From positions 54,607,187 through 54,671,186 of the forward strand of contig NC_088301.1 of the NCBI RefSeq assembly GCF_032854445.1: 64,000 nucleotides of DNA, read 5' to 3'. The notes beneath the pieces are model-generated. The model did no database searches. It saw nothing but the letters and a program-made list of their open reading frames with translations, and had not been told where the DNA came from. This stretch comes from Liolophura sinensis. Lineage: Eukaryota > Mollusca > Polyplacophora > Chitonida > Chitonidae. Both the position numbers and the translations under genes were made by a program. Shown piece by piece: positions 25,463-53,397 of the stretch. How positions within the stretch are numbered: position 1 is the first letter of the stretch; each line of letters begins with the position of its first letter.

Positions 25463-27633
25463 TAGAGGTTGACTATTCACTTTTGCCACGGCTAATTGTG
25501 AGAACTTGCAGTGTTCACAGACTGATTAATCGCAATTCTGTTTTCCGCAAATTTTAATAAATAATGTCTAGTTATTAAAAACGTACCGGCCTATTTTTAT
25601 GCATAGTGTGGTGTGGGATTATTCTAGGTGTAACCATGAATGTTGCAAATTTAATGTTATGTATGTGCATGTATCCGGCCGTATGTGTTGAAAGCCTTTT
25701 AGCAAACTGCGGATGGTCGTGGGTTTCCCCTGGGCTGTGCCCGGATTAATCCCGCCATAATGCTGACCGCCGTCGTATAAGTGAAACATTCTAGAGTACG
25801 GCGTGAACTTGTGAACAAACTGTGTAGATCAGCTGGAGAGACAAATGTGAGAAGCTGAATATCCTATCACTTACTGTTCTACAATGTTACACACTGCAAT
25901 ACGAAGCACAAAGCCATGCTCTGGAAGCCTACACTTGTACGTTATAATGGGGACGATTTCGTATCCCTGTTACATACTGCTGCATACCGGGGACAAACGT
26001 CAAAAAGGTGCACACCACACACGTGTAGAATACGTGTACCGCCATGCTAACTATAAATACAAACCGGGGACTGGACCCTTTTCACCCCCTTCTTTCAAGA
26101 GGGCAACACCACAAAGCAGACCCGGGACGTCCCCAGTAGGAGCTGTCCCCACTAGAAAGGTGTTTGTCCCCGCCATACATCTTTGGACAACGCACACACA
26201 CACACACACGAGTATGGTAACAAAATGGCACATGATAGGAGATTACTGCTGGGTGTTCAGGTTGATTTTTTAATGTTATTTACTGTCTACAAGGCTTTCC
26301 GTCATGTATGTGTAAGCTATAGAGTAGTTGTAGGCATGTAAGCTAAACAATTCAGCCGCTCACTTAATTTGAGATTAGAGAAGTTGAAAGCGCGGAGGTA
26401 GAATAGATTCTACTTCCGTGTTGAAAGTCATTTTCCCAAAAGTGGAAGCTTTTAAAACTAGTATTTAAATAAACTGTTACATTTTTCTTTATTCTGGGTA
26501 CAGCGCAACTTCACAAGGAAGATGAGGTGGTCAAATAATTTTTACGTTATTTAAGATGTTTTTATTCATTGTGAGAGATTCCATGTATGTAGAGAGGCCG
26601 TCATCGTCAGACTATTACTCATAATTTTCAAAAACAATGTCATCCGCATCCTCCGTAAAACGTTCCCAGTTGATTGGGGAGCCTGTGGTCCCTGCTGATA
26701 CCGTTTTTATATCTGAAGGTCAAAATTTGTCTTATTAGAAGCAGCGTGAGTGCAAATTTTCTCAATGCCCGTGTTTTGATCAGAAACTACATACCAAGCA
26801 TGTCATTGTTGACGATTACTTTGTTATCACAGTTTGAATTTCACAGTCGTAACTTTAACGATTTTAAAGACATTTTCTGTTGCTGATCAATTCTTTCCGC
26901 TTAAGTATGTTTCAAGACTGCTCTCTAAAAACTCCTTAATTTTAATTTTAAACCTTTGAAGTTAAGGTTTTACTGTAACAGCTCACGCGAAACTAAAATA
27001 GTTGTCGTAAGAACTTAAACGCCAACAAGTATTTTGACTTAAATAACATGAGGTAGAAAAACAACAGTGATGTTAAAATTTAAAATGTCAACGGGCTACA
27101 ATTTCTCAAAAGCTGTGATGTCATCACATTTAATAGGGGGTGGTCTTTTTATGGTCGGTATATTACCTGAACATGGCGGTAGAGTTACGCACTCGCTTTT
27201 GTCAGTGCCTACTATACCATAAGGCTCTGCAATAAACATAAATAGTCTGTCCAACTTAATATGGAAAGATATAAACTAGATTCAGTTAAAACTTATGATT
27301 GAATATTATCAATGTTGAAATTTAGGAATTTTAAATCCATAGAAGTTTTTTGGTCGATATTTGAGGAGCAAGTATCAAAAACTTGGGTAAACCTATTGGT
27401 CGACATTTTTTACCGTTTGTCAGTGATACACTGTTCCTTTTTTCTTACCAAAAACTGTAAATGTATCATTAGGAAACATTTTCTAAATTTTACTTCATTT
27501 CTGATAAACTAGAGGTCGACTAGATTTGCCCCCTTCTTTCGAAATATATTTTGTTCACTCAATTTAGGCTATTCTACTTCCCAAGCCGTTTTTGACCAGG
27601 CAGGAGTAGGTGTAAAATCTCCGGAACACTTAC
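25463..27633. other. Intergenic; no gene seen
   Basis: It contains the SINE at 25683-25806, a short (CA)n at about 26190-26209 and A+T-rich DNA. The motif TGATGTCATCA (about 27117) and AACATGGCGG (about 27171) lie close together. They resemble CRE/ATF and YY1 sites, but no transcript follows convincingly. Confidence 0.4.
25683..25806 (+). mobile_element. SINE 3' half
   Basis: AGCAAACTGCGGATGGTCGT, GGGTTTCCCCTGGGCTGTGC, CCATAATGCTGACCGCCGTC and GTATAAGTGAAACATTCTAG match the body and tail of the full copies. The tRNA-like head is absent. Confidence 0.8.
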
Positions 27634-27815
27634 TTATGATACCAGAAACCAAGGATCGAGTCGGCCTCTGTATTTATAAATAAACTGTGTTATTAGAAGT
27701 TCCTGTACCATATCTTAATACAAGGCGATATTTTTTTCACATCACAATGGAGAGCAGAATTGTGTCAATAATAACCTCGTGATCCAGAAGCATTATGTCA
27801 GGAATATTCACTTAC

Positions 27816-30545
27816 CACACTGACCTCCGTTCTTCGGTTCAGGACATTTACACTGTCTCTCTCTTGTACGGTGAGGGCCTCCGCTTATTGTATCCAGGCA
27901 TCCTTCGCACGTGCTCCACACCCCCCACTCGCACCAATTACCATTAACTAAGACAAACGAAAAAAAAAAAAAAAAGCAACGATGCATGTGAACATTTATT
28001 TATTTGTTTTGTACGGGTGATCTGGTGAGTAGCTTGATAAGTTGTCTAATGGGTTTTAAGCCAATTGCTGGCCGAAAGTTTGTTGTTTTCTAAAGATAGT
28101 CTTTGAAATACGTTATTGTAAAATCATCTATATTTCATATGCATATGTTCTGGGCCCTCTTTTCGACCCAAATATATACAAGAAAACACCACAGTGAATG
28201 TTAATTACTTTCTTCACTGTTGAATCGGGTTTTAAAACATTTCTTTTAATTGGATCAAACGTGGGGGGGGGGGGGGGGGCGTTTATGTCGTCAGGGTATT
28301 TTGAAATTTTGTAATTTGCAAAACTGAGCATTCAAACGGAGTGAAAACACACGACTACTAATTCCTCCGGAAGGCCCCAGCCCCCAGCAAAATTCAGTGC
28401 AAGACCTGCCCTGTTTTATGGCAATTTTTCAGCAAGGCGATAATATTTAAAAGCGATGTTAATGTTTTATGAAGCCATGTTTGTATGTTTCTATCACAAA
28501 GAACGTAAGAATATAAATATCGAGTTTCCCTAGGTTTTTATCATAGGTTTTTCTTAGGTTTTTGCCACTTTGTGGATGCTCCTAGCTCCCGTTAAGATTA
28601 TCTCCATCTTAGCACACAAATTTCGAATTAAATGCTCCCTACATTTGCTTATGTTTACTATAATTGGTCGAAAAGGCATATCTCCAGACGTCTGGAATCT
28701 CGGCGCTTCCGGGGTTTAGGTGGCCCCTTGACCCTTGCCTATAATAAATTGACTGGGATAGTCGTTCCGCTGGCCTATGTACGACCCCACCACCTCTCCG
28801 CCTTGTTGCCTATACAGACCTGATTACTCTGGTCAGTGTATAATAAACATTGTTTAGTTTATCCGCATGCGCTATTAGAGTAAATATTTTACAACTCACA
28901 TAGCGTATCGTTAATCCAACGGAAAATAAGTGTATTCAAGTAAAGTATGGAAGCGATCCGAAAACGAAATTTGTGCCAAATTGTGCAGTATAGGCCATCT
29001 TCATTACAACCTTGAGGATGGATATGTTTTTTTCTATTAAAACACGTTCAAACGCGCCTACGGCTATGTAGGGTTCTAGAGCTTCCAGGGTCTTGGCGGC
29101 CCCTGAGCCCTCATCTCATTGGTTGGGAACTCCCAACCCCACCCCACTTTTCATTTGCTTCCTACGCCGATGTATACCGATATACAACCGTACAAGACGA
29201 TGTATGAAATCTGGAGATGGATTTTATGGATTTATTTATTCATGATAACGATCATATTTATCTGTCCCACCAATTGTTCGATAGTAAACGACCAATGTAC
29301 GCTTTCCTACGCCTTTGCATTTATAAATACACATAAACGTGGACGATTTCAATCCGTAAATAAACATTATTGAAAATATTTCTTAGGGTGTTGCCAGAAA
29401 TTTAGCCCAATTGAAACGCAAGCTGCAAGAGACCTGCATGAAACGCAACATTTAAAGAGATTACACCGGAATTTTTTGGCAGAAAATCCGTGTTCGCTAA
29501 TCAAATCAATTATTTTTTTTTTGCATTTACACTCATTTGGAATAGCTCAAATTAATGCCGTTCAGCTGGGACCAATATAACGGTTACATTAGTGCCAGCT
29601 TTCATTTAATATCAGACTCGTGTCTGCACCGTTTATTATCAAATCACTTGAAAGTTCGAAAAAGTTCTAATGAAAACTGCTTTTAGGAATTATGGTAACT
29701 CTATTACCCATTTTGAACGGTAAAAGCGTGCACATACGTGGTTGATACTCTGTGAAAGGTGACTATTTGGACTATACTAAAATAGAAACAAAAATTCGAT
29801 TAATAGATTAGAGTTACCCATTTAACACATTACGCCCCACCAACCACGCACTCTCACTCTCGGTTTCCACCGAGGTAAACCAATTCTAACCTTCAGCAAC
29901 CAATTTATCGTTATGAAATAAAAAGAATTGTGCGTAAGGGTGGCAAGGCGGCAAAAAAGTGGTCTTTGCTTTTAACATCATGTTTATGAGACACTAATCA
30001 CTCAAAAGGCGAAAGAACTACAGGGTTGTCTTTCAGATATCACCCAGCAATGGTTGTTATGCAAATCTGTGAAGCAAAAAGTACCGGTAAATATAAACTT
30101 TCAGTTGGTACCTTTAGGTATTTTGATTTTCTATTAATGTGGTTTGCTTATTTTTCAAATGACTATGACGTATGTTTCTTACTTCGTTAATGAGGGAGGG
30201 GAAATACCTGTCCCCTAAAGATGTGAGCTTATCCATCTATAAATAACTCGCAAAGCCTCTTCAGTGTTTATTACCTGGACATGTGGAGCCCTCAGGTGTA
30301 CACAGCCGTGATCTGTACCGGGTACCTCTACAAGGGGAACCCCCATCCACGGGGTAAGGGTTGTTACATCGCCTATAATCAAAGACCGTCCCGGATGTGG
30401 CATTGCACGTGTGTCCCGTACACTTACGTATCTGCGTCCAAGCTGACCAACCCCCCATCCTCTGTCAGACCCAAAATATGCACATGATCTTCATACATCT
30501 ATATGAAAAGTGTTCAAACTCAAAATCTGTTGTCCCATATAAACA

Positions 30546-30606
<61 letters not shown>

Positions 30607-31438
30607 AATGGATGTGTGACGTAGGCTTAATGGGCTCGAATTAGTTTTCAGTATATAGGGGCCCCCGTTGTCGAGTGGTTAGCGCAATGACCCCGGAACT
30701 CGCTGCGAGTCCATGTCCAGCTCATACTGGAATTCTCTCTACAAGGGAATTTTCTCCCACAATAATGCTTGTCGCCATCGTACATACAGCGTAAAACATC
30801 AATCAAATAAATATATTTTCGGTATACCCTTGAGTTTGGTATAAAAAAAGACAATAAATTAATAAATCATTTCTTGAAATTGCGAAATGGCACTTGCCTT
30901 TCCACAATATGGTACATATTTAGTCGGTTTCTTGAAGATTGAATCTATAAAACAAGGCCTCCCATGTTTTATGTTGTTATATACAATGACTAAGGAGGCG
31001 ATGAGTTGTATGGGCAGAAGAAATAAATTGGCAGAGCCCCAGGGAAATAGGATTGCACATGGCAAAGTACTTCAAGACCATCCTGACATCAAGCCGCAGA
31101 CCAACGACTGGTAATCAAGTAGTCGGCGCCCAATAGTGGAATTAATGGTCAGATTTTAATTCCAGGGTTGGGGAATATGTCGTTTTGTTGTAAAATTTTA
31201 CAGTTTTTGGAGTAGCCAAGAGTATGACGTCAAAACTATGTTAAATCTGGAATAATGTATGGTAGATAAGTGGTTGAAAGCCAGGTCCACACGTGAAAAA
31301 GCCTGAAGATTCTGTTATAAAGTTTCTGTTATACACCATATACAGCAAAAATTTGAGTTCATAAAGGGACTAACCTCGAGTAGCAACAAGGATGGCGAAC
31401 AGAGCTACGAACCCCAGGTTCACCACAAGACTCCCCAT
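27816..31438 (-). CDS. Secreted two-TSR protein, truncated paralogue of the properdin-like gene
   Basis: Minus-strand exons: 31375-31438 (signal peptide MGSLVVNLGFVALFAILVA, donor GTTAGT), 30275-30461 (TSR) and 27816-27947 (TSR), with matching phase-1 introns. The first TSR (GGWSAWTQIRKC...CTPEGSTCPG) resembles TSR5 of the neighbouring gene (GGWSSWTSYAPC...CLNDEGCPG). The second (NGNWCEWGVWSTC...PKNGGQC) resembles its TSR6 (NGEWCRWSKWSPC...PKNGGKTC). TSRs are small Cys/Trp/Arg-layered secreted modules that bind proteins and glycans. The second exon has one extra G in a G6 run (about 30447-30452) that breaks the frame just before WSAW; the rest is open. The 3' end is not found: a 34-nt candidate exon at 27634-27667 joins in phase but is weak. 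Confidence 0.65.
27948..30274. other. Intron of the two-TSR gene
   Basis: It contains an A run beside the exon 3 acceptor (27960-27974) and a G17 run at 28263-28279. It also holds two diverged copies of a short repeat near 28690-28735 and 29080-29110 (CTTCCGGGGTTTAGGTGGCC and CTTCCAGGGTCTTGGCGGCC). No coding sequence is seen. Confidence 0.5.
30545..30602. repeat. (TA)n microsatellite
   Basis: About 28 uninterrupted TA units lie in the first intron of the two-TSR gene. Confidence 0.97.
30657..30812 (+). mobile_element. SINE with TGTCGAGTGGTTAGCGC head
   Basis: The head CCCCGTTGTCGAGTGGTTAG is Ser/Leu-tRNA-like. The body GTCCATGTCCAGCTCATACT and the tail AGCGTAAAACATCAATCAAA are shared with the family. 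The central block is shortened. Confidence 0.8.
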
Positions 31439-31499: not shown

Positions 31500-33975
31500 C
31501 CGGCCTATGCGGACCTATTTAGACTGTAAATACTTTTCTCTTGTTGGATGTATTTCACATTCTGCGAGTGTACATATGAAGCTCAGTTATGCCGGAACCA
31601 GGTCCTCACAATGGGAAGGCGGATGCACTCCTATCATAGCCGGAAGCAGCTGTTGTACATTTATGTACGTTGTAAAGTTGCTTACAATCTAGATGCCAGA
31701 TTGAGAGTGACATTATATCATTAATAGGGGTAACTTTAATTCTTGAATTAAAGTCTTTGAAGCTCAAAGTCTCACGACTGGCAGGATTACGGTAGACCTA
31801 GTGAATTCCACCGTGACGAAATCACCATTCGTTTGTCTACTTGAACTTTTTCCCTATTGAAAACTTTAATTCAAGACCTCCATGGCGCTACATGTAGGTA
31901 ATGGTTATAGGGCTATTCAACGTAATATGGCAACTCCGTTATATTCCATTGAAAGCAAGTCTAGCCTGCTTCAAAATCCCGTGAATCACATGAAACAGAC
32001 AAGATTACTGAACAAATGATTTATTTATTTATTTATTTATTTATTTCATCGATGTTTTACGCCGTACTCAAGAATGTTTCATTTATTCGACGGCGGCCAA
32101 CATTATGGTGGGAGGAAACCGGGCAGTGCCCGGGGCCATCGGACCATCCGCAGGTTGCTGGCACACCTTCCCACGTACGGCCGGAAAGGAAGCCAGCATG
32201 AGCTGGACTTGAACTCACAGCGACCGCATTGGTGAGAGACTCCTAGCTCATTACGACGCGCTAGCGCGCTAACCAACTGAGCTGAACAGATGACGTGTTT
32301 TAGTAATGATCTGCGAATTTAGGATTCACTTTTAGAGAACTCATTGCTATGGTTGACTGTAGATGGTAAATATGAAACTCACGTTGATAATTATTTATTT
32401 AGATAGGCCTTATACAAGAAAAAAATGCGTGATGGAATCACAAAGTCTCCTTGAATTACGAGTACGATTTTTCAGGGTTTTATGCATAAAACATTTTATT
32501 GAAATGCATTAATACTAACAGGCGAGAGCATATTTTAGGCCTTTATATTACGTGTCTATATCATTACAACGTAGTGATATTTAAAACACAGTCTGATATC
32601 CGCGTTGTATGTAAAGTCGCCCGTTGCTCTACTTGTCATATATTAAAGGGCAGATATATCTTTTCTGCCCTTTTTCTGTAGATTTCTTAATATATACATT
32701 AAAGTGCTGTATTAGCAGGCAGTATATATACCTAAGGGAACCTTTCCCCAGTAAATTAGTTCGGTTCTAATCTATGTAGTCTAATATATTTATTCCTGCC
32801 TATGCGATGACATAGGCGTTACTCGTGCATTGCAACAGACCAATCAACAGTCGAGTCGATTAGCCATTACGCAGGAAAATGGGGACCATTCCAAGAGTAA
32901 AACTTCAAGAGCACAGATATTTAGAAATAGTTTGAAAAAAACAAATGAAACGGATCTTTATTTATACTACATTCTACCTGGTAATATTACTTTCGAAGAT
33001 TGTTTCTTAAAGACACGAACAGTACAAAAATTTTCCATGGAACGCTGAAATTCCAAATTTGGGTTTGTAAGAATAGTTCTCAGACAGATCCAGTCTCTAC
33101 TGGTATAATGGTATAGCAGCTAACAACAGGTAGGTATATATACTGATCCCAAACATGTGGCTTCTTCCTTGACTTTTCCCTGCGCCACCCCTTGATACAT
33201 ACATCTAAATATGGTACAGAAAATTCGTGGGAAACACTTAACGCCTTATGCTCACGTAACTGATACGTGAGGCCAATCGATACAAAATGTCTCAAAATAC
33301 TGTAAAACAAATAATACCTAAGCGAAGGTAGGTTGATTTTGCATTGAGGTATGATTTTAATGCCTACTTTAAAGGAAAATATCCAAAGACAGTGTTTCTC
33401 TAGACCAGCTAGATGTTGTCTTTTTTTTCTCGTTCGAAATAACCATTACCATACTCCATTTCCACTTGAGATCTGTACTATGTCAATTAGTTCACAAAAA
33501 CACTGGCGTAATCATGCCATTATAACTGAAACGAGTGAAATCGATCACAGCTATGAAGTACAGTAGTAAATTTAAACACTGAAGTGAAAATGCGACATTT
33601 GAGTAGTTTTTTTTATTAGTATACACTACACCAGCAAATGACATTCCACAAAATTATCAATATCAATAAATAAATCGTGGAAATTGCAAATTTTGCTATC
33701 CTCTTAATTTATCAGTTAAAATCAATATATGAGTGTTGAAGGCAATATTGATATTTCATGATCTATAACTTGAATGAAGTGAAAGGTTTTAAACAGTACA
33801 TAATTTGTTTTCCGCTTCACAAATCACAGAGAGCATTTTTGTTGATTTCAGAGATGCATCATGCTTGGGATACATTATGTACAACTTCTCACGAAGTAAA
33901 CAAGCACATCAAAAGGAGTTTTACCAGTATTTACACAAAACATATATAAACGGAAAGTATAGCCGGTTCCCAGAC
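31500..33975. other. Intergenic between the two TSR genes
   Basis: It holds the full SINE at 32017-32286. A minus-strand AATAAA (TTTATT at about 33610) lies some 370 bases past the larger gene's stop and may be its poly(A) signal. Nothing else is supported. Confidence 0.45.
32017..32286 (-). mobile_element. Full-length tRNA-derived SINE
   Basis: Read on the minus strand, the head AGCTCAGTTGGTTAGCGCGC has box A. CTGTGAGTTCAAGTCCAGCT (box-B-like) follows, then CCTGCGGATGGTC, GCCGCCGTCGAATAAATGAA and GTACGGCGTAAAACATCGAT. It ends in (AAAT)n, seen as (TTTA)n at 32018-32048. Confidence 0.9.
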
Positions 33976-36900
33976 TCATGTGTCGGTCTCACTATTATCC
34001 TGTGCACCACTTCCGGACCACATGTCAGAATCTGTATCCGGGTCTTGGACATCGTCCTCCTGCAAGTGCATGCGAGAAATGTATAGGGGTTCGTTGTTTG
34101 AATGTTCGTTGTGTATGAATAGGTTTAACATTTAATATCCCTTCTAATACATATATCATATGTTATATTTTCTGAATAATATAACTATGGTAGAAAAGAG
34201 GCAGACAAAGGGATGTCATTTGTCAAATTCCCATGTAAATACATTCTTTACGCTACTGTGATTACCGTCGAGTTTTTGCAGTTATTATTTCTTCACAATT
34301 ATCGGCATCAGCTTGTAAGAAAATATACTCGCTTTGCAGTAACATCTCACAAAGGTAAAGGACATGGATAATTTTGATCGTGTTTTAATGTTACCTGATC
34401 GCAGGTAATGTCACTCCCATCTCCTGATCCAGGAGAATCCCCCTTGCACCCCCTTGATAATTCCTTCTGTGGTTCTGAATTTCAAAACACATGAAACACT
34501 GATTGTTTAGTTGTTAATTCTGAAAGTTTAATTACAAGCTACAGTAAATTTCCCAACTGTCTATAGAAGGTCACAAAATTATTATGTCATTGTAATCTTT
34601 GATTCCTGAGAGGTGATAGGACAAACTTTAGCTGCCAAAACTTTAGTCCATGTTTAAATGTAACGAAGGATACCATTTATAATTTGATTCAACTTTATGC
34701 CGATATCACAACATTACCCCAATTATACATGATAAACCTATCAAACCAATGATACAACAGTCGAGTGAGTTTGATATTAAAGTATCACATACAGAGTATA
34801 AATCGAACCCCAGGTACTCGAACCCCAGGGTACTCGACTTACTCTCCTTCTGGGTAGCCAGTTATAATCACACATTGGTACGTCAGCACATTCTCGAACT
34901 TCAAACCCCGTGGCCTCTGGAACAAAAGAAATCGGGGTCATCCAAAGAAGAACTGTTTACACTCTGAACTTGTTTGAATGGATGGTATGATTTTTTAACG
35001 TAAGGAATTAGCGTCGTGTGAATCGGTGACAGCACAGCAATATCTTGGATCCGCTTCGCCACATTTCTCTGAATAATTTTAAGCATAATATTTATTAATG
35101 TATAACTTAAAATAAGTACGCACCATCTGTATCACACGTTTTTCCGCCATTCTTTGGAAATGGACACGAACAAGTCCGTTCTCGCCGCTCATATGCAAGG
35201 TGATTGAGGAGACTTTTGCATGTAGCAATGCATGGAGACCATTTGCTCCATCTACACCATTCTCCATTCACTGAAAAAAGGAATCACTGAAGCCATTAGT
35301 ATCGAGATATGTCTGATCATTATTAGCCTGCGTCATATATTAAAGCACATTCCATCCGATAACAAAAAGATTCAACGGCTGGATTATTGTTAAAAGATGT
35401 AGGATTGATTAGCTATGCTAGGCCTATAAAGAGCCCATACTATACAAGCGCTGAAAATAGCATTGCGTTTAAAGCAACCTTTCAATTTTTTATAAAAATA
35501 ATAATAATAAAATAAAAATTTCCGTTCAAAGAAAATTACCTGGGCAACCTTCGTCGTTGAGGCATTCTAGAGAAAGGAAGCTGTTCCCTTTACAAAATCT
35601 GCCACCAAATCTTGGCCTAGGGTTTGTACAGCTGCGAGTTCGGATTCGGTGTCCCGGCTTCCCAGCTGCACCGTACTGCGTCACAGGGGGCGTAACTCGT
35701 CCAGGACGACCATCCGCCGTCAACTGAATAGAAACGGACGTATAGATTTGGATTCCATAGAACCAAGATAACTAGATATTCTAGTACAACGAAAAGGTTT
35801 ATACACCCAAGGTGAAGAAAGATACGCTTTTTTATTCTTCCAATGCGTTCACTGTTATATAGAGGATAAAAAAAATTAAATCAGCTGAATATCTACTTCC
35901 ATTGCAAAGATACCTGGACAAGGCCTGGAACTTTTACACTTCTGATCATCTTTAGAAGGGCCAGTGCAATCTTTGCCGCCATGTCTTGGTTTGGGCTGTC
36001 ACACTTCCGGTTCCGTGAGCGGATACCAGACCCGCAAGTGACACTGCAGGAGGTCCACTCTCCCACAATGACCATCCCCCGTGTACTGTAACAAAAACAG
36101 ACAAGTTGTTGGCCTCTGCTAGATAGGACCTGTTAAAAAAAGTATATCCATTAATTTTATATCAACCAAAATCGATCTAGTTATTAAACCTAAAAAAAAG
36201 ATTATCCTGCATCTCTCTTTCCAAAACAACAATTCATTACTCACGAAATCAAGTGGTCTCACAAACATCAAAATAAGATCAAAAATATTCTAACTACGTT
36301 AATCATAAAAATGTCCAATTTTTGGTTCTTAATTAATTTTCAACTTCTTGTAAGGTTGATATGCAGAGTACTCACAGTAACTTAATTAGCCTTTACATGC
36401 AGTTACATTTTCTACAAAAGTCACATTTCGTAAGGATGGAAATATCAATGAGTTTATAGATTCTTAATCTCTGAAATTCTTTCACATTTTTTTTACACAT
36501 ATCAGGTAAAGGCTTAATCTTGTACTTGTATACTAAGCCATAGATTTACCTGGACAAAGCCTGTTCGTGCACCTCCTCTGCTCAAAACGGGAGCCAGGAC
36601 AGTTTTTACCACCATTGCCCGGCTCTGGATTATTGCACAGCCTTGTTCTGGTCATTGTTCCCTTTCCGCACGTAACGCTGCATGTGAAAACCTGGACCAT
36701 TGCCCCCAGCTTCCATCCACTAGGTGAAATATAAAATGCATTTACATGATATACAACAAGTTTCCTACTGTGGAGATAGGGGCAAATCCCTTAAGGCTTG
36801 ATAATATTCCTTGATCAACATTGTAAATCTGTGCTCTGTCAACAAGGCCTAGACATATGAAAAGCTTTTTATTCAAAATTTCCTAATGTCACCCCGATCG

Positions 36901-39900
36901 TCGTCTCTGACTTCCTGCTGAAATGTTCAATGCCATTCCGATACTTAATGTTACGAAAAGATTGTATTATGACTATAAATGTATAGCATATACAAGTTAA
37001 CAGAGGAAACTTTCTGGCAGAATGTACTTAAGTATAGATATATCACATTCAATACATATCAGCAGACAAAGGATGATGACTTTCCAGGTTATTCGCCGTA
37101 CAATGTCGTACGATATGGCGCCAACCGGAAGCACTATCATTGACAGTTAAGGAAATCACCCTGGGCAGGTTTGGGTGTTACACTCTCTGTGCCCCTCTGC
37201 TTCTCCTTGACAGTATTTTCCGCCATGACTTGGTGATGGGTAGTTACAGTGCCGCACACGAGACTGCTTTCCGCCGTCCACAGGAGGCAGAGCAAGACTG
37301 CCATGGATACCACGGGCCCCAGTTCCCGTCAACTTAAAATGACAATTTCAAGAATACATGTAGTGTGGTCAGGAGGAATCATTTCTTAATACCTTCGCTC
37401 GTTGTATTAGTATTGTAGCAGAATTGTGCAAGAAGAGGATTTGATATGTTCTAGACACAAGTAGTATAACTCATTGACCGTATTGCAGAATGGTCAATGC
37501 AGGGATTTTCATGAATACAATGTTCTCCAGAATTGTAGATTAACAACATACCTGGGCAATAGTGCTTTTCTATGCATGGCTGAACCTGCATGTTTCTCGG
37601 ATCTGTCGCCACACAAGTGTTACAAAGTCGAACACGTGACCTCCAGCCAGCGCCACACGTCACACTGCACGCACCCCAAGACGACCAGCCTTCTGAGGCG
37701 GAATCTGAAAAAACGGACAGTTTTCTTATCATTATGCAGCTGAAATGATTTTCCAAAACAGATTCTCTTCCTGATGCAGTTTATGCGATAACATAAAAGC
37801 ACACAGTTTACTAACCTTTTTTTCGTTTTTTCTTTCTCTGTCTTGTTCTGTTTAGGTTTGTTTTTGCCTGGTGTCTTTCCACCCAAGGCTTCACACGGAG
37901 TACATAGATATAGGTTTCGCTCCACGTTTTTCCTACAATATTAATGACAATATTTCTTTCTTCTTATAAACGTAAGAAATCATGAATTAATTATACCATG
38001 TTTCTGTCAAATTGAGTTTATCATGTTAAAGGTAAAAATGACCAGAGACCTTAAAGAGTTTTGCATAGTTTTCATCACACTGTTTATTATGTGTGACCAT
38101 ATAAATAATAACATTTATACATTTTATACATTATACACATTTTGATATTATAGACTTACAGCTTAGAGGGGGGTCTCCGTGCTCAGTTGGTTAGCGCGCT
38201 AGCGCATCGCAATCACCCAAAATTCTCTCACCAATGCAGTCGCTGTGACTTCAAGTCCAGCTCATGCTGGCTTCCTCTCCGGCCGTACGTGGGGAAGTGT
38301 GCCAGCAACCTGCGGATGGTCGTGGGTTTCTCCCGGGCTCTGCCCGGTTTCCACCCACCATAATGTTGGCCGCCGTCGTATAAGTGAAATATTCTTGAGT
38401 TTATCAAATAAAATAGATAAATAAAAACAGCTTAGAGAGTAAAGCCTGTACGGCGACGACAGTGTAATAATTGGCAAATGATAAAACGTAACCGGTGAAA
38501 TACGGCCTCTTGTGAATTAACCTCAGTCAGGCTTTAAGTTATTCTAGACCAGTGACGTAATATAAATTGCTATACAAATCATTGCATTTTCTTTTACCCA
38601 GTCCAGTTCATTTTGCTAAGGGTTGTGTTAGCTGCTATTATTTACGGTTTACATGAATAGCTTGAATCAAACCTTAATTGAATTGAATCTACCAATTTCT
38701 GGAAAACACACAGTCGTCGCTGCTCTAGTTCTATATGTAGTCTTATGTATTATGGGATAAAATTAACACGTAGTGGTCTCAACCAGTAAGCAGTGAACCA
38801 AACCTTAGCGGAAATGAAAATTGAGAAGTAAATCGTGGGAAGGCTAATACTTTCTTATACAACTTTTTAAACATTGATATAGCCAAATCATTAACACAGG
38901 TATCATCTTTTATTAATACAAAGACTGTCTGCTACGTACCTTCTTCACAGCAAAACCAACACCTTTTCTGGACGAACAACAGGCTGAAGCCGTCGCGTAC
39001 TTGTTTTTACGTATAGGGCCCTTACATTTGTTTTTGCGTTGCACATACTTCTTAAAACAAACTTGCCCCTCTGGAAAATAAAGCATATAAGAAAGATGGG
39101 ATATCAATAAATTTTAAAAGCAGTTATCGTGTGGGTCATAAGGGATAATGCTGGTGTATTTCGTCTTAAAGGTAAAGGCATCCATATTTATTTTCAGTTG
39201 CCACGTCTAAACACTCGATTGGAAAAAACAAGAGCGCATCAACACCAACATGCTGTTAAGAAGTGGATAGGAAATCCATTCCGGGCTTCTTAGTTATAAA
39301 TCAAACTGCATGGTTGTATTTCTTTCAAGCAACTCATTGTCGCGTTCAGAGGAAAGTCTGGCATCGAAAACAGAGTACATCCAGTCAGTACATAGTTCTT
39401 CACAGCATGTATTCAGTACGATTCTGATGAGTGATATTCATATTTTCCCAAGCTATTAAAGGATTTTTATCAACAAGTGTTTTAAATCTCGATTCTATTT
39501 CTTTACTAGGCGTTATATTGATGACCGTTTAGCAATAAATAATTATCATGTAGTCAAAGCGGTGAACATATCTCTTCTTGTAGCATTTATTATAGATCAT
39601 GTGAAATATGTGATGATTTCCGTTATAAGTTATTCATTTAAGTGACGCCAGTGTGCACGCATACACCATCAAACATAAAAAAACTACAGCACACAGAATA
39701 AAACCACAGCAGCGATAGCTGATAGTTAGCAAATGATGTCTTTCCTGGAATATCGACTGTATTCCCTGTAGCATTGAAACTGATGACTGCTTCTCTCTTA
39801 CGTGTTGCCGGCTTTATATTCTATTTATGTATTGTTACTTAAATATTCAGTGATGGTTGAAGATGCTATGGACATGGGCCTCGTCATTATCTACATGGAA

Positions 39901-41967
39901 TGTCTGTGTTATGTGACGATTTAAATCAGCGTCACAACTTATTGCCGCAAAAACTAGTGTGTCAAGGTTATTCCGTCAAATAGATTTAAGTTTCTCAAAT
40001 TTTACGGTATGTAAATATGGACAGACTCCCTGTCACTCTACTTCATAAGGTTGTCTAATTCCGCTTAACTCGGGGCTAGGGACAGTTTATTCGTCGTGTT
40101 GAATTAGGTCGATATTGATTTAATTCATTCGCGTAAAACATACCTTGCGTGTCTCCATTATCATTGAAAACTGTTGAAATCGACATTACGTCACTGTGGT
40201 TTTAGTTAATGTTGTCTGAGATTCCTGCGGACTTATATCACACGTCAATATTTAACAACGAATTCAAGGCGTTCTGAAAACGACACCGTGTGGTCTTATA
40301 GCGATTACATCACTTTTGTAGTTATGTTTGTGTTACACAATGGGAGTTTGGTGAAAACTGCCTTGTGACAGTTACTCCCGACGACAACTGTGTAAAACTG
40401 AACTCAGGACGCTTGACATTCATTTGGAAAACACTCGAACATATCTAAGTCTAACAAACTACGCCTCCTGAAAATTAGTGTTGTTTCCTACGCTTAGCTT
40501 GTGAGTTCCAGCTCTTGACACCTCTACGGTATCACATAGGTCATCAGCTAAGGATACTGGATCTAAACGAAGAGAAGCGCATGCGGTTATGATCGGGGTT
40601 ATGGCTGGTCTTTGCTATTGACTTGATGTATTCTGTGGATGTTTGGCCTCTAACCATTTGCGGACGTTGTATCACGTGATACTTCTCCTTCGCTGTGCGG
40701 GAATATATTGCCTAATATGATCAAGCAAATCGGGACATTACTAGATATATGGTGTGCATGTGTAAATTTAATGAATATATTATCGATAAGTCCAGATTGA
40801 CTCGCCATGGACCCGCGAGTGCCCGGTTATCGCAGTTCCTACATACATTTGTCTACAAGGTAAAGCTGAGAAGGAGATCTGTTCCCCTGTCAATTTTCAG
40901 ACTTTTTATTCTAATCAAACCCGGAAAAGTCTCCTATCACTGATACGCCACTTTGTACTGTAGCACATGAATATTTATCGGCGATAAAAATACATGGAGA
41001 AATGAGCCATCAACAGCGAGAGAGAATATTGATCAGATCCAGCCAGTACACGCCAGCAGTTGATGCCACTGAGTCGAATGAATTATGTGTACATGTACTT
41101 ACACGTATGCCAAAGGCCTATTTGTGCTATTCTGTTTATTCTTCTCTGACTTTCCATGACACCGAAGCTGTTGGTACATTTCAATTAATTCTTACATTAA
41201 ATTCTTACGCATTCTATGGATGTCAACATGGTTTAACCGAAAATGACAGAAACCTTTTGTTTGAGGAGTGTAAAGAAAAAAAAATCGCATCAAAGCCTAA
41301 TGCCTACAGGTCTATCAATCGTCGTCACTATGACTACTAAAATACTTAATTTGTCCTCAAAGAAATCTCGTGAAAGCTTTCAAGGAAGTTATTATTGATA
41401 GACAGGAGCGATCGAAAGATTATAGTGTATTTTATCCTGTGTTGTGATATATTATGTATGGGTTTGTTGTGATTTTTATCAATATATTCAATATATTAAA
41501 TTCATTTTAGTATGAATAAACTAAACAAAGTTTTAAAAATTGCAATGTGCATGTATTTCTGTATACCTGAATTTCTGAATTTCAAATAAAAATGCCTGGC
41601 TATAGAATTTGTCTACAGACAATAATTTACCAAAATAATCTTGTATATAAGAAAAAATGTATAAGAAAATCATCACCTGCGACATGGATGGTTTGATGTT
41701 TTCTTTCAAAGGTTAACTTGTCCTTGATATGATGGTTTTACAAAAGTTAAATAATTTAGACAAAATGGTTAGAATATACCTGTCTAAGTAAACTTTAATA
41801 AATCATGTGTACAGCGTTTCTCACTTTGTAATGGTTAAACTTATAGAACTGTCAAACGTTTCAGGTCAGAGTTTATGTATAAAACTACAGAACGGCTTGG
41901 TCTACTTACCTGTCACTGAGAAAGTTCCAAGGGCAATGATTAGAAAGACTAGATAAAGTAAATCCAT
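33976..41967 (-). CDS. Properdin-like secreted protein (TB/TSR0 module plus six TSRs)
   Basis: Minus-strand exons, 5' to 3': 41910-41967 (signal MDLLYLVFLIIALGTFSVT), 38940-39070, 37816-37932, 37552-37704, 37160-37332, 36550-36719, 35914-36085, 35540-35723, 35124-35270, 34843-34916, 34395-34474 and 33976-34059. Exons 2-3 give CFKKYVQRKNKCKG...CC...LCTPC, the cysteine pattern of the N-terminal TB (TSR0) module of properdin, then a Lys-rich linker. Exons 4-8 are TSR1-5, each with WxxW and CSVTCG-type motifs. Exons 9-10 are TSR6, ending VRECADVPMCD. An acidic tail EDDVQDPDTDSD may follow. About 510 residues; vertebrate properdin has the same module order and about 470. Properdin binds and stabilises the alternative-pathway C3 convertase. 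Single-base frame breaks occur in exons 3, 5, 6, 7 and 8 and at exon 11; cysteines and splice sites are otherwise intact. Confidence 0.75.
34843..35270 (-). CDS. Exons 9-10 of the properdin-like gene: TSR6 split by a short intron
   Basis: Exon 9 (35124-35270) reads VNGEWCRWSKWSPCIATC, then RRERTCSCPFPKNGGKTC. Exon 10 (34843-34916) continues EATGFEVRECADVPMCDYNW. Phases join exactly and no indel is present. The closing VREC-x3-PMCD resembles the end of the last TSR of vertebrate properdin. Confidence 0.8.
35540..35723 (-). CDS. Exon 8 of the properdin-like gene: TSR5, frame broken
   Basis: Entry frame gives VDGGWSSWTSYAPCDAVRCS. After one extra base near 35660 it reads GKPGHRIRTRSCTNPRPRFG and then NDEGCPG. 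The CDAVRC start replaces the usual CSVTC, as in the TSR5-like exon of the neighbouring gene. Length 184 nt (183+1). Confidence 0.75.
35914..36085 (-). CDS. Exon 7 of the properdin-like gene: TSR4, two frame breaks
   Basis: Entry frame gives VHGGWSLWES. After one missing base SCSVTCGSGIRSRNRKCDSP continues, and after a second missing base PRHGGKDCTGPSKDDQKC and SSRPCPG. The length of 172 nt is two short of 174, which agrees. Confidence 0.75.
36550..36719 (-). CDS. Exon 6 of the properdin-like gene: TSR3, frame broken
   Basis: Entry frame gives VDGSWGQWSRFS. After one missing base near 36688 it continues TCSVTCGKGTMTRTRLCNNP, then GNGGKNCPG...CTNRLCPG. The length of 170 nt is one short of a phase-1/1 exon. 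Donor GTAAAT. Confidence 0.75.
37160..37332 (-). CDS. Exon 5 of the properdin-like gene: TSR2, frame broken
   Basis: It reads DGNWGPWYPWQSCSASCG in entry frame, then stops. One base later KQSRVRHCNYPSPSHGGKYC and HRECNTQTCP continue. The break is an extra base at about 37268 in TGTGGACGGCGG. A GGG at the donor may add a second. Confidence 0.75.
37552..37704 (-). CDS. Exon 4 of the properdin-like gene: TSR1
   Basis: Intact 153-nt phase-1/1 exon reading SEGWSSWGACSVTCGAGWRS, then RVRLCNTC...VQPCIEKHYCPG. It has WSSW (the consensus for C-mannosylation of the first Trp), CSVTCG and six Cys. Donor GTATGT. Confidence 0.85.
37816..37932 (-). CDS. Exon 3 of the properdin-like gene: end of the TB module and Lys-rich linker
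   Basis: In the frame that continues the module it reads NVERNLYLCTPCEALGGK, then KNKPKQNKTEKEKTKK. LCxPC matches the end of the properdin TB module. Entry and exit phases are each off by one base. A5 at the start and A7 at the end are homopolymers, and one A fewer in each restores both joins. The linker is unusually basic and might bind polyanions (inference). Confidence 0.65.
38168..38428 (+). mobile_element. Full-length tRNA-derived SINE
   Basis: Head TCCGTGCTCAGTTGGTTAGC, then CTGTGACTTCAAGTCCAGCT, GGCCGTACGTGGGGAAGTGT, GCAACCTGCGGATGGTCGTG, GCCGCCGTCGTATAAGTGAA and ATATTCTTGAG. It sits in an intron of the properdin-like gene. Confidence 0.9.
38437..38740. repeat. Copies of the dispersed repeat that seeded the 48-bp minisatellite
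   Basis: The minus strand of 38437-38500 reads GGTTACGTTTTATCATTTGC, then ATTACACTGTCGTCGC. On the plus strand at 38703-38735 there is CACACAGTCGTCGCTGCTCT. Between them, GACCAGTGACG...ATTGCATTTTCTTTTACC also occurs at 55303-55370. The element may be fold-back in form. Confidence 0.6.
38940..39070 (-). CDS. Exon 2 of the properdin-like gene: first part of the TB/TSR0 module
   Basis: Acceptor TTTTCCAG, donor GTACGT. With the G carried from the signal exon it reads EGQVCFKKYVQRKNKCKG, then SACCSSRKGVGFAVKK. The C-F-x2-Y-x5-KCKG...CC spacing is diagnostic for the N-terminal module of properdin and is not part of ordinary TSR proteins. The exon is intact. Confidence 0.75.
39071..41909 (-). other. 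First intron of the properdin-like gene
   Basis: A 2.8-kb intron, GTAAGT to TTTTCCAG. It is A+T rich; I see no further exon, repeat or promoter in it. Confidence 0.55.
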
Positions 41968-46141: not shown

Positions 46142-49100
46142 TTATTGCAATTCTTTCTCACACACGAAGTAACCAGTGTCCAAAAGCCCTATGTCCCTCA
46201 AGGTTAAATCACATTCAACTGAGTTGACCATAGCAGCTGTATCATATGGGCCGAAGAATGAGCCTCTGTTATCTGGTTCACCTTTCGCCTTACACCACAC
46301 TTGGGCGTTCTCACTTAAGAAATCTCCGCTTTCCCAAAGCCAGTCTCCCTCTCTGACTCTATCCGATGCCCCCACGTGGAAAAGCATATCGGGAATATTA
46401 AGGGCTAGAAATGCAAGAAAAAACATAAATTGAAATACATCTCAGCCTTTTTCCTTTTTCTACTGAAAAATAGAGTATAGATCTTATGTCAGAGCTCAAA
46501 TATTAGATCTACTAAATCAACGACACCTTACACGGCCAATCTTTTGCATCACGTTGCAAGACCGTCTGTCACTTGTCGATCAACATTGAAATGTTGGAGC
46601 AAGGAAACAGGGCCGGAGAGGAAGCCAGCATGAGCTGGACTGGGTTCTATTAAAATTGTTAGGAATATCATTACTCTCGGGAAAACTGTGTCACGTTTTT
46701 TTAACAAACATGGTCAGTAAGTAATCCGTCGATTTCAGCATGTTTTAGGATAGAAGTTGTGCCCCGTAACTACTGGCCAATTCGGTCACGTGGCTTAGTG
46801 TCCATATTTGGATTTTAATGAAAACCCTTTATAATGACACTTCTCATAGGCACATGAATCTGCTGACAGGAAAATAGTGCAGATGTTTCCTACATGAAAT
46901 TTCCAAAAATGTTTGTAAACATCATGAAGTGACACATAGACATACTCAAACTAAAGGATATGTTTGACTTACACAGCTATTTTAACTGGATTGAAACGGC
47001 ACTACAAATGCGTTCGAATATGCTCGGAGGACATATAAGTGAGCAAGACAGGAGAGAACAGCAAAACATAATTTCATAAAAAAAAAATTACACACGCTAT
47101 GGATTATTAAATAAACGGACATAAATTGAATTGTCATATTAACAGACTGGAAGTGACATCATCAAAACCGGGTTCTTCCCCGGGGAGAAACAGCATTAGA
47201 TTCCCCGAACCACGGAGTGACTGCTTAGGCAGCTCACAAATGACGTTAACGAATTGGAAGCAATGGTTTACCCTTTACAAATGAGACATAAGAGGAACAG
47301 GATTCAGTATACCAATGCATAGATGCATGATCGATTTTTGTTACCATATTGCCATGGGTAAGAAACGTTACTTCTCGATAATGGTTAATTCCATTGAGCT
47401 GTTATTTAACAGACACAACGTTCGGACAAATTAAGTTTGCCAAAAACACGTTTATATCTTGAAAAGTATGGAAGCCACATGTCCAAAAATGTTTGATTTT
47501 CAATATTTTGCGTATAGTATCTGACGGAGTTTTTCATGCTGATCACAATTCCGGTCCTATTTCTTTTCTCTGCCTTACGGTTTTGTCATAATGTGCGATC
47601 AACGTGCAGAAAAGTCCAATTTTCCGGTGTTTGTAGGTTTCGTTACGGCAAACTCTATTAGTTGGAAACTTGCTACTTTCAAAATGGCATGATCATTTGT
47701 TTATGTCTAAGGTAGTTAAACTGAATCAATAAATATAGGATTTGTAGGGTTTCAAAAACTTTTAAATATAATTTAAAGCGTGCAACATAAAGACCGATTT
47801 ATTACGTGTAAAATATCGCCATGCAACATTGATGGATAGGAAGAATGTACACTTTCTAATTAAGTTGCTTATCTCCCCATGCACAAAAGACACCATTCAA
47901 TTAATCGGAAGTGAAGTTACGTAAGATAGAAATACCAGCTTGAACCGCTGCTTTAGCTATATTTATAGTTTGGTATTGTACAAGTATGTACTTACACGGG
48001 TGGTTTCTAATTATATTGGCGACAAACTGAAACTTTGGCATGGTTTCGAGTGAGGCGAGTTCTGCTCCGTAAAGCCAACAAGTCATCTTTGCAACGTCCC
48101 AGGTCAACTGTAGTCCGTAATGGATGGTAATATGGCTGTTTGGCTTAAAGCTGAACACTAGATTATCCGGGTCTTCTGAAACACAACACCAGAAAATAAT
48201 ATTTTCTTTTCGCCGCCACGATAAAAGATCAATTTTCTTATTGCATAATAAAAAGGGTTCAATTAGCCTTAGTTCCAACGTGAGAGATCCAAAAACCCCT
48301 AATAAAACCAACATTCTCAGTGGATCTCACTTGTGTGTTTTAACACTGAGTTGATGTTGTTGTTTTCCTCCTTAGATGTTTTTTGAATATTCAAGGACAG
48401 ATAGTTGCATGTGCGGTTCTATATGTGGATAATAATGCTCATTTATTTATTCGTTACGTTGTACAGTACAAGTAATATAATCGTCACCAACTGTAAATAG
48501 GTCTAATTCACTTCAGTATCTATGCATTACTTTTGTACATGTATAAATAGAAAGTCAATTTTTTTAGCGAATCTTATCTTTCTTAAAAATTTAACACGCT
48601 TGTCCGTTCAGGTGTTACTAGTATTTGTGTGGACAGAAAATGTTAGTCTTGCACAGACATAGCGAAACTTTTACGTAGAGGAAGTACTGCCCAATGTAAG
48701 GAGGCCCAATTTATTGTGAGAAGGGCCAGTGGATGTAGGTAATTCATAATTTAATATCTGTAAATAATTTCTTTAAACAATCCCATGGCGCATAAATGTG
48801 AAGGCTATGTAGAAAATCCTGACTATATTGTCATGTCCTAAAAACTCGAAAAAAATTTGAAAATACACTCGGGTTTACACCTAATCAAATGACTTCAAAG
48901 AGATACATTATCGTGTTGGCAAAGCTTAAAATTGCTTGATTTGCTTTGGAGACCATGGGATAATAAATATCGATGAAGGAATTATCAATATCAGAATCAA
49001 TAAATTACTCATCGCCATAGATAAATGAGACAGTATTGGACTTTGAGCCTGTTGCTCGAGATCATATCGTATATTTGTCCAGAAGTTTACGCTACACTTA

Positions 49101-50306
49101 AAAAAAAGAACATTCGCCACAAATCTGACAATGCTGAAATAAAGCTGCAGATGATGAATTCTCTCGGCGGGAAATGAATTTTCTCGGCTGGAAATGGATT
49201 CTATCGGCGGGAAATAGATTAGAACAGTGGGAAATGGAATCCGTCGGTGGGAAATAGATTAGAACAGTCGTTATTTCATCAGGAGCCCCCCAAACTTTTG
49301 TTCTAAGCACGTTGTCTCTTTGTGCTGTGACGTAATTTTGTCTCAGTGCCACTGGAGGTGACGTTGATCTGGAGTTCTCATTTCGTCAAGACCCGAAGAT
49401 TGGATTAGAGGTACCGAGGAACTTTGATGACTTGCAGAGAAGTTGGATGTCAACTATTTGTTAGTACGCCTTTGTTGTCTGCATGCCAGTGATATCTTTC
49501 ACTTAGGAATTCACGAGGAACTGTGGATGTGCCTGTTCCTGAGATTAGACAGTGAGACTCCGTGCGTTTGAACTGGAAGTGTGCCTGTGGGTCTCCTTAA
49601 GAATCCATCAGTTGCTGGCGTGACATTAATTGGCATGTTGCATATAGGCTGTACTATTTGTAATAAATTGTTTAGTCATATGTATTGAATTTATCTGAGC
49701 ATACCTTTACAATTCGATCTGGGGAAATAGATTCTATCGACGGGAAACAGATTCGAACGGTGGGAAATGGCTTGGAATGTCTGACAATTGGCCAAACTGT
49801 TGACACCTTATTTGCGCTTGTTTCCGTATAATGTAATAAAGAAACAAAGGTCAGTATATAAATGAATCTGTCCACCATAACGATAACACAATTGATCATT
49901 GAAACGAAGACGTGTTTCAGTAGAGAATTAATTGCTATAACATTTGATAAAAATAGTTGGAAACTTTGTAGAACTTACCTGCGGCAAGAAGGACATAATA
50001 TTTCGTACCTAGGCTGGTCTGACTGTTATCCGTGTTTTGAAATATTTCCGTATTGGTCTGACAAAATCCATTCGACTTTTTGTAGAAATAAGACTTACAA
50101 AGCATGTTCTGAAGACAGTAAGCCTGGCATCTGATTGGAGAAATCACGCCTTTTACAATTTCTAACGTAAAGTCTGAAATTAACATGTCATCAAGCATGT
50201 GATCTTTAACCCCTGTAACTTTTCGCAACGATGTTGTAACGAAAATACATTGACAGAACGCCACGACACTTGTAAATATCTTAAGCTGCACCCTGTATAC
50301 ATACAT
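46142..50306 (-). CDS. Secreted PAN/apple + C-type lectin protein (EPD-type)
   Basis: Three minus-strand exons with clean phase-1 joins: 49979-50306 (ATG at 50306), 47996-48175 and 46142-46404 (stop TAA). About 257 residues, frame intact. Exon 1 gives an N-terminal hydrophobic signal and a PAN module (RCQAYCLQNMLCKSYF...GFCQTNTE...GTKYYVLL). Exons 2-3 form a C-type lectin domain: WDVAKMTCWLYGAELASLET, FHVGASDRVREGDWLWESG, VWCKAKGEPDN, VECDLTLRD, GYFVCEKELQ. The EPD triplet sits where EPN (mannose type) or QPD (galactose type) occurs in Ca-dependent lectins, but the usual WND is not evident. Such proteins are typical secreted recognition molecules of invertebrates. A plus-strand paralogue lies head-to-head 3.1 kb away. 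Confidence 0.8.
46608..46648 (-). mobile_element. SINE scrap
   Basis: The plus strand GGCCGGAGAGGAAGCCAGCA then TGAGCTGGACT is the middle of the SINE family; both ends are missing. Confidence 0.6.
49157..49772 (+). repeat. Two direct-repeat blocks of a GGGAAAT motif
   Basis: Block 1 (49157-49265) has several about 22-bp units such as TTCTATCGGCGGGAAATAGA. Block 2 (49720-49772) repeats GATTCTATCGACGGGAAACA and GTGGGAAATGG. They lie about 530 bp apart in the same orientation and could mark two ends or two copies of one element. Confidence 0.55.
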
Positions 50307-51109
50307 GTTTAAGTAATGTGAAACACTCTATGCGCCAGCAAATATTTTTGCATGGGTACATTCGCTGACAATATCGATGGCTATCTGTTTATCTCAAGAA
50401 TTCCAAATGCTATAAATCCAGGTGGTCTTTCTGGTTTTGAACGCTTACAAGGCAGAAAATGACAACGAGCTGTCATTAAGACAAAATTCGTGTCAACCCG
50501 TGGTTATTCCAATGATTATCTGTCTGAACACTATGGCTTCAAAACAATACAAGGTTTTGGTATGTTTGGTGTTTTCGCAGAACGCGCAGATTTATTAATC
50601 TGTATTGATCGTCAATTCATCGCAAGTATCCTCAGTCGATATGAACGTTGTTTTCGAAAATATTATAGGCTTCCTTAAGTATTGTAAGTAAAACATTAGA
50701 CATTAACACACTTAACACATTAACACAAGCTGCAGTGTATTCCGCCAAGAAATTTTATTTTTGTCTGCAGCTTAATACTGAAAATTCAATGACATTAAAT
50801 CAATGAAGTGAAAGGTTCACCAGTATATCCAACTTATTGCTTTTGTCAAAATGTTGTATAAATAATATGTGCTTGGTACCAAATAACACCAACGTTTCAA
50901 TGTAGTCAAAATACGTAAAAGCCAATCTGCTATAGAAGTGGCCACAAGAACTAACAAGAGTTCGGGTGAACAAAATATGCGCAATAATAATCTCAATAAT
51001 AGATTTGTCTGAAATGTCTAAAAGAATATCAACGCAAAATTGTGATGAGTATAAACCCCAAAGTACTTCAAGGGAATTGGTGGTGTGTTTTAGTATGAAA
51101 TAGTAACGT

Positions 51110-52510: not shown

Positions 52511-53397
52511 ACAGAATGGGTTTAACATAAGACGACTGGCCTAATGGTGGGGGTATAAAAACACAAGTTTAACAAGAAATTTTCAAGCAAATGACCGAGG
52601 TTTTCTTACCATAAATTACAGGTCGTCAACCTTTGTGAATAGCAGATCGAATTTGACGTATTTTACCATCGAAACTGGGTTGTATCAACCACTACATGTA
52701 TGCTAATATGTACAATGTGAAGTTTGCATTAGATTACAGCTTCTGATGCAACAATAAGGCAATATGCGAGGAAGAAACTGTGCGTGAAAAGTTCGATCAT
52801 TTTAATATAAAAATTTGCATTAGGTTATGCATAACTGCATAATGTCCATTTTATCCAATTTTAGGTCTAAATCTACACTCATGGATATTTGATTTTTATA
52901 GCAATTACACTCTTAAAATTATTTCAACAAATAGTTCCTGTATATTTCAGCTGACGTCTGAACTAGATGTCTTTGTTACAAGATTGTGGAGCGAGCAGGA
53001 CTTATAACTAATACACACCAGTCGTGCTTGAACATCATTCATGACATAAAATCGTAGTAATGGAAAATTTTCAAAGCGTACATGCTAATCAAGGATTCTT
53101 CATGTGGCAGGCTGAAGTCTCGTCATTGTTAGGATACTGGAAATTTGTGAAGAATACAGCCCTGTCACTTACAGCCGCCTACTGCCAAAGCAAGATTTTT
53201 TGCCGCTGGAAATTGACAACATAGATTTCCGATATTAGAAAATCCCTGAAAGCTTAGTAATGATGAACCACTAACAGGGAAAACAGCATGCGTGATTGGC
53301 CTGCTGGCTACTCTTTATCAAGCAGTGCGCATGCACACGTGTCTTTCTTGAATTCCTTTAACTAAGAAAAGAGGTGGAAAGGCGTCATAACAATCAG

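Follow-up and report, generated by a model that had tools for sequence, protein, structure and literature searches.

Does the chiton Liolophura sinensis carry a gene built like vertebrate properdin, and would its product act on a C3 convertase as properdin does? The question is raised by a 64,000-nucleotide window of its genome (C7:54607187-54671186), in which a preliminary reading of the letters alone (the sequence-only reading) had proposed a properdin-like gene, with a TB module followed by six thrombospondin type 1 repeats (TSRs). We examined this window together with the rest of the genome (609 Mb in 632 contigs, C7 measuring 60.4 Mb). The window probably holds two secreted TSR genes in tandem: gene A, which has the properdin architecture and is most likely a distant homologue, and gene B, a short relative of A's C-terminal head. 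Both genes lie on the minus strand, and coordinates are window positions unless a contig is named.

Gene A was read as twelve exons running from 41967 down to 33976, with AG/GT at all chosen borders (Table 1). For profile and PDB searches the exons were joined and an X was put at each frame change; the resulting protein matched Pfam TSP_1 at 1.3e-40 and human properdin in the PDB at 1.6e-45, so its modules are not a product of chance. With the frame changes bridged in this way, gene A shares with vertebrate properdin the order signal peptide, TB module, TSR1 to TSR6, and probably an acidic C-terminus. The signal peptide and the TB pattern CF..Y.....KCKG...CC...LC.PC, which spans exons 2 and 3, are where the sequence-only reading had placed them, and the last TSR is split over two exons, with VRECADVPMCD contained, as it had said. 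The properdin order that it described is paralleled in the exon plan of human CFP. There, according to the available passages of PMC3632793, the signal peptide falls in exon 2 and the N-terminal region in exon 3; TSR1-5 follow in exons 4-8, and TSR6 is divided between exon 9 (its first 38 residues) and exon 10. In both genes TSR1-5 occupy a single exon each and TSR6 occupies two; gene A differs in having an additional intron in the TB module and a Lys-rich linker, both absent from human properdin.

Three junctions of gene A (exons 2/3, 3/4 and 10/11) are out of phase as given, which makes the middle of the TB module, the linker and the tail less secure. At the exon 2/3 junction an alternative AG 13 bases further, a weak-looking acceptor, restores the phase and improves the match to human properdin (GFAVKKRNLYLCTPC vs AFAYQKRSGGLCQPC); the two acceptor choices, giving a shorter and a longer TB module, were both scored. 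The acidic tail, previously raised as a possibility, probably belongs to gene A: it forms an open candidate exon with an acceptor before it and a stop at 33976, but its link to the gene depends on the doubtful exon 10/11 junction. A dispersed repeat, which we take by its look to be SINE-like, is present as an inverted pair (32040-32282 and 38181-38426; arm complementarity 91% and 82%), one copy of which sits in the gene A intron between exons 2 and 3.

We compared the TB module with human properdin and with the follistatin N-terminal domain, which is among the closest structural neighbours of properdin TB (available passages of PMC6736995). Seventeen of 46 aligned residues are identical in human properdin, and the six cysteines, with their predicted disulfides, have properdin-like spacing. 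Alignment to human properdin TB scored 75 with one splice choice and 62 with the other, and none of 5000 shuffles with cysteine positions fixed reached either score. The better fit is to properdin, as the sequence-only reading had expected (z 6.6 and 5.9, vs 0.1 and 0.7 for the follistatin N-domain); the follistatin domain shares the C-x-P-C end, but the similarity of gene A to it does not go beyond the cysteine-fixed shuffles, and a follistatin-like module was rejected on these values. A Pfam TB domain was also rejected, PF00683 not being listed up to E 10. In a PDB search with the module, properdin made up nine of the 14 distinct sequences among the matches listed for the shorter splice choice (best E 0.015), while neither follistatin nor fibrillin nor LTBP was among the matches listed up to E 10; the top row, SAKe6AR at 3.5e-7, sums weak stretches of which no single one passes. 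Exon 2 gave no further strong match in the genome, one of the three listed being itself and the next having an E of 1.03. PF18487, the properdin TB profile, found no match in the genome, where its controls were equally silent, so this search is uninformative.

Gene B (26615-31438) lies 2.5 kb downstream of gene A and consists of a signal peptide, a TSR5-like repeat, a TSR6-like repeat and an acidic tail. Two of its exons were found with a TSR model to which no window sequence had contributed, and the others by reading around them. The earlier extent of 33976-41967 does enclose the exons of gene A, but further TSR exons lie outside it, at 27167-30461. Among eight repeats, the TSR6-like pair of gene B scored highest with gene A TSR6 (142, z 13.3); its exon 3 topped the 27 other places in the genome listing for gene A exon 9 (E 1.1e-6), and the extra TSR6 cysteines are common to the two genes. 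Over 59 codons of the intact head exons, A and B differ with a saturated pS of 1.04 and a pN of 0.45, which indicates selective constraint after an old duplication. The gene B signal exon was first spotted by eye. A signal-exon filter demanding a purine at donor +3 passed three candidates in the window and none at 30.5-34 kb, missing gene B exon 1; a second filter, loosened afterwards (no purine demand, seven of eight donor letters) and applied to both strands, passed only gene A exon 1 and gene B exon 1. Within 100 kb on either side, the TSR model found no TSR exon at E up to 1, and four matches of single window exons there (E 0.27-0.51) were taken as chance. Large TSR exon clusters occur elsewhere in the genome, at C7:11.62-11.65 Mb, C7:32.12 Mb, C13:17.49 Mb, and C11:0.50 and 0.72 Mb.

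Other results, from profiles, repeat comparisons, reading frames and contact residues, weigh against tying this pair to properdin. The profile search of the joined exons that the sequence-only reading had suggested matched TSP_1. PF22195, the properdin C-terminal TSR, exceeds its cut-off of 27 on the whole protein (41.7 bits), whereas PF18487 gave 11.5/10.5 bits on the gene A module at a cut-off of 25 (human properdin, 77.3) and did not appear among the matches listed with the longer splice choice. Set against the shuffle and PDB matches, the PF18487 score leads us to regard the similarity of the TB module to properdin as real but remote. The PF22195 total sums generic TSR starts: its best stretch is TSR2 (profile 2-39 of 90), and TSR6 alone reaches 9.9 bits (profile 2-37). 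Human properdin TB itself resembles follistatin (z 5.3; FST_N 1.5e-4), whereas the gene A module does not; gene A may therefore share the properdin-specific part, or have diverged too far on the follistatin side.

For each of the six gene A TSRs, a TSP1 or UNC5B repeat outscores the properdin repeat at the corresponding position: 87 vs 79 for TSR1, 171-191 (best TSP1 repeat) vs 122-145 for TSR2-4, and, with UNC5B repeat 1, 138 vs 81 for TSR5 and 114 vs 49 for TSR6, TSR2 and TSR5 being joined without X for this scoring. TSR similarity alone was accordingly rejected as proof of properdin. A TB module followed by six TSRs is not known from thrombospondin-1 or UNC5. In favour of properdin, the order of the gene A repeats ranked 17 of 720 permutations against the human order, driven mostly by TSR1 and TSR5, though with several off-diagonal cells above the diagonal. 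TSR6 has eight cysteines, unlike the vertebrate repeat, and its split, which comes after about 49 residues, does not align with the human one. In gene B, exon 2 scores highest with TSR3 (122), TSR5 coming second (106), and the C-x4-C spacing is part of the case for relating it to TSR5. The assembly also carries frame breaks that set gene A apart from vertebrate properdin: four of its six TSRs contain frame changes (TSR2, TSR3 and TSR5 one each, TSR4 two), as does one exon of gene B, and the TSR2-TSR5 exons measure 173, 170, 172 and 184 bases, none a multiple of three, though phase 1 borders require it. The six TSR units in seven exons described earlier are thus present as modules, but TSR2-TSR5 are not readable in one frame, which had gone unreported.

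Human properdin holds C3b by a thumb in TSR5 (nine residues between two cysteines) and an index finger in TSR6 (a 31-residue insert), according to the available passages of PMC10087229, PMC6713926 and PMC6736995. Gene A has neither loop: the human C-x9-C is C-x4-C, and the index-finger insert is absent. Most C3b contacts are not retained either. R329, R330, Y414, V421 and E422 of human properdin have no counterpart, and Q343, R353, R359, Q363, Q364 and H369 are changed; W318 is retained, and K427 is aligned to a K inside a gapped stretch. At the oligomer interface (TB-TSR4 and TSR1-TSR6), F62, C312, S90 and P459 are unchanged, L47 (to I) and L124 (to V) are replaced conservatively, and L58, L275, I305, R76, E317, S97, W122, P399, L456 and H457 are changed; of six TB-TSR4 contact positions, two are identical and one conservative. 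Because the loops are missing, a vertebrate-like role of gene A in stabilising a C3 convertase is not supported; nor is the proposal of a factor-P-like positive regulator, the TSRs moreover scoring higher with TSP1 or UNC5B. The loops, the contact residues mostly lost and the TB profile score below cut-off are also why we do not file gene A as factor P. It may plausibly be a distant relative of properdin; its product could have an immune role, and the partners in L. sinensis may differ too.

How the frame changes arose bears directly on the standing of gene A, and the explanations that compete with ours are not mutually exclusive. Gene A could be a pseudogene, a once-working properdin-like gene now dead, with gene B possibly the surviving member; we take this seriously without favouring it. 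It would account for the five or more frame changes over four gene A exons, and for the concentration of damage here: five of seven TSR exons (gene A exons 4-9 and gene B exon 2) are broken, vs 12 of 97 outside the window that fall short among the matches listed (Fisher p 0.001), a comparison in which the five are judged by frame and the 12 by span, the listing favours whole exons and the whole gene B exon 3 is excluded from the seven. In the other 85 of the 97 the match covers 40 or more of 49 positions, and one of these has an internal stop. Open stretches of 550, 309 and 755 codons elsewhere in the window also fit a dead gene, as does the outcome of a genome search in which no second copy or haplotig of gene A exons 4-8 was found. 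Yet across 445 codons the pieces as read retain 44 Cys and 18 Trp, the cysteines of the TSR and TB modules are where they belong, and the chosen splice borders are intact. The probability of seeing no stop and no loss of Cys or Trp would be 0.16, 0.026 and 0.0001 after 12, 24 and 60 neutral substitutions, figures that are indicative only, being computed without an ancestor on pieces picked as open. Most frame changes adjoin short single-base runs, as judged by eye, and the five broken exons have a G+C of 0.535-0.572 in a window of 0.381, with whole exon 4 (0.549) and whole gene B exon 3 (0.530) similar. A uniformly noisy assembly was rejected as the source, given the long open stretches in the window and the mostly whole TSR exons elsewhere. 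On balance we judge local sequence error somewhat likelier than a dead gene.

A working gene could still be something other than a distant homologue of properdin. Were it a true factor P, it would bind a C3b-like protein and stabilise a C3 convertase; the architecture, the TB module and the exon plan are all consistent with this, and the genome has at least 50 matches to thioester-domain exons, with GCGEQ in eight of nine thioester loci scanned (some overlapping). C3 is present in bivalves, and factor B-like proteins in some clams, but oysters seem to lack a typical factor B (available passages of PMC8089394). Beyond the missing thumb, index finger and contacts, the open stretches downstream of the two best thioester loci look by eye like alpha-2-macroglobulin ends, and the three NTR matches in the genome, netrin-like by eye, do not lie near thioester exons among the matches listed; ANATO gave no genome match, with silent controls that make the result uninformative. 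The search for C3 recommended by the earlier reading turned up thioester exons but not C3 itself, in searches too weak to show absence; factor B was not identified either, no search having been aimed at it. We consider a true factor P unlikely. An ordinary lineage-specific matrix or adhesion protein with a convergent TB-like module would explain why all six TSRs are outscored in properdin's favour nowhere and by TSP1 or UNC5B repeats throughout, and it suits a genome with many TSR clusters. A mollusc precedent exists in the Pinctada byssal TSP-1 protein, an invertebrate TSR protein compared to properdin and modelled by Phyre2 on properdin and C6; it differs, however, in its 24 TSRs, low-complexity repeats and vWFA domain, and a TB module is not described in the available passages (PMC4597212). 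Convergence sits poorly with a TB similarity that exceeds cysteine-fixed shuffles for properdin and not for follistatin, and with an exon plan parallel to human CFP, and we find it improbable. Gene B, finally, may not be a gene of its own: its exons 2-5 could be an alternative 3' end spliced onto the TB-TSR1-4 part of gene A, thereby swapping the head. The shared strand, the downstream position, phase-compatible borders and an identical module order (TSR5, TSR6, tail) would permit such a swap, but a phase 1 signal-peptide exon stands just upstream of gene B exon 2, one of the two in the window that pass the loosened filter, and makes the swap doubtful.

Automatic 'properdin-like' names exist in protein databases, and the sequence-only reading had taken properdin to be described mainly from vertebrates. 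In papers, properdin or properdin-like sequences have in fact also been named in a sea star (PMC4503460), a coral (PMC8698432) and Nematostella (PMC12549020), and the available passages mention no functional test; in a survey of complement genes the term 'properdin' is absent from the main text (PMC11312191). Among the titles and abstract openings listed by literature searches, none concerned a gene with a TB module and six TSRs in molluscs or any other protostomes.

If gene A and gene B are a tandem pair of secreted TSR genes, as we favour, the exons of gene A would be spliced into the message of a secreted, disulfide-rich rod. Its TB/TSR1 end and its TSR6 end could join chains into oligomers, and TSR5, TSR6 and the tail may serve as a ligand-binding head. 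The predicted product of gene B would be a head without a rod, which could compete with A or act alone. A bolder reading holds that the properdin plan (TB, six TSRs, a gene with split TSR6, acidic tail) is older than vertebrates: an invertebrate lineage would have had it before the loops that grip C3b arose, and L. sinensis would have a competing tandem head-only paralogue as well; we consider this unlikely. Should gene A be a properdin homologue, either its architecture arose before the convertase-gripping loops or the loops were lost in this lineage. Properdin's first role, and how the loops were added, would then become approachable questions, and gene B, being head-only, would offer a natural experiment on the C-terminal head.

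Table 1. Exons of genes A and B, in window positions
Feature	Position	Strand	Content
Gene A exon 1	41910..41967	minus	start codon and signal peptide MDLLYLVFLIIALGTFSVT; phase 1 donor
Gene A exon 2	38940..39070	minus	TB-type module, first part (CFKKYVQRKNKCKG...CC...GFAVKK)
Gene A exon 3	37816..37932	minus	end of TB module (RNLYLCTPC) and Lys/Asn-rich linker; both junctions out of phase as given
Gene A exon 4	37552..37704	minus	TSR1; intact frame
Gene A exon 5	37160..37332	minus	TSR2; one frame change
Gene A exon 6	36550..36719	minus	TSR3; one frame change
Gene A exon 7	35914..36085	minus	TSR4; two frame changes
Gene A exon 8	35540..35723	minus	TSR5; one frame change; C-x4-C between first two cysteines
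Gene A exon 9	35124..35270	minus	TSR6, first part; intact frame; two extra cysteines (EWC, TCSC)
Gene A exon 10	34843..34916	minus	TSR6, remainder (VRECADVPMC)
Gene A candidate exon 11	34395..34474	minus	C-terminal region; joins exon 10 out of phase as given
Gene A candidate exon 12	33976..34059	minus	acidic tail EDDVQDPDTDSDMWSGSGAQDNSETDT and stop
Gene B exon 1	31375..31438	minus	signal peptide MGSLVVNLGFVALFAILVATR; phase 1 donor
Gene B exon 2	30275..30461	minus	TSR5-like; C-x4-C spacing as in gene A TSR5; length 187; one frame change near start
Gene B exon 3	27816..27947	minus	TSR6-like, first part; intact frame
Gene B exon 4	27167..27226	minus	TSR6-like, remainder (SECVTLPPCS); intact frame
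Gene B exon 5	26615..26712	minus	acidic tail (...ERFTEDADDIVFENYE) and stop; intact frame; AATAAA/ATTAAA-type signal 48 bases further

Elsewhere in the window, a tRNA scan found none. A tandem array of about 43 copies of a 48-base unit occupies 7098-9142, where the plus strand is open in three frames. A plus-strand exon at 17332 (17332-17676) encodes a TASOR-PIN domain (E 1.1e-7) and is preceded on its strand by the long open stretches mentioned above, without a Pfam match (83-1735, 11487-12416 and 13490-15757), which we infer to belong to one gene with it. On the far side of gene A, PAN domains exceed the cut-off in two exons, 49935-50327 (minus) and 53362-53745 (plus), and C-type lectin gives a weak match that falls below it (46142-46441, minus); the region 46142-56294 possibly holds a family of PAN/lectin genes.

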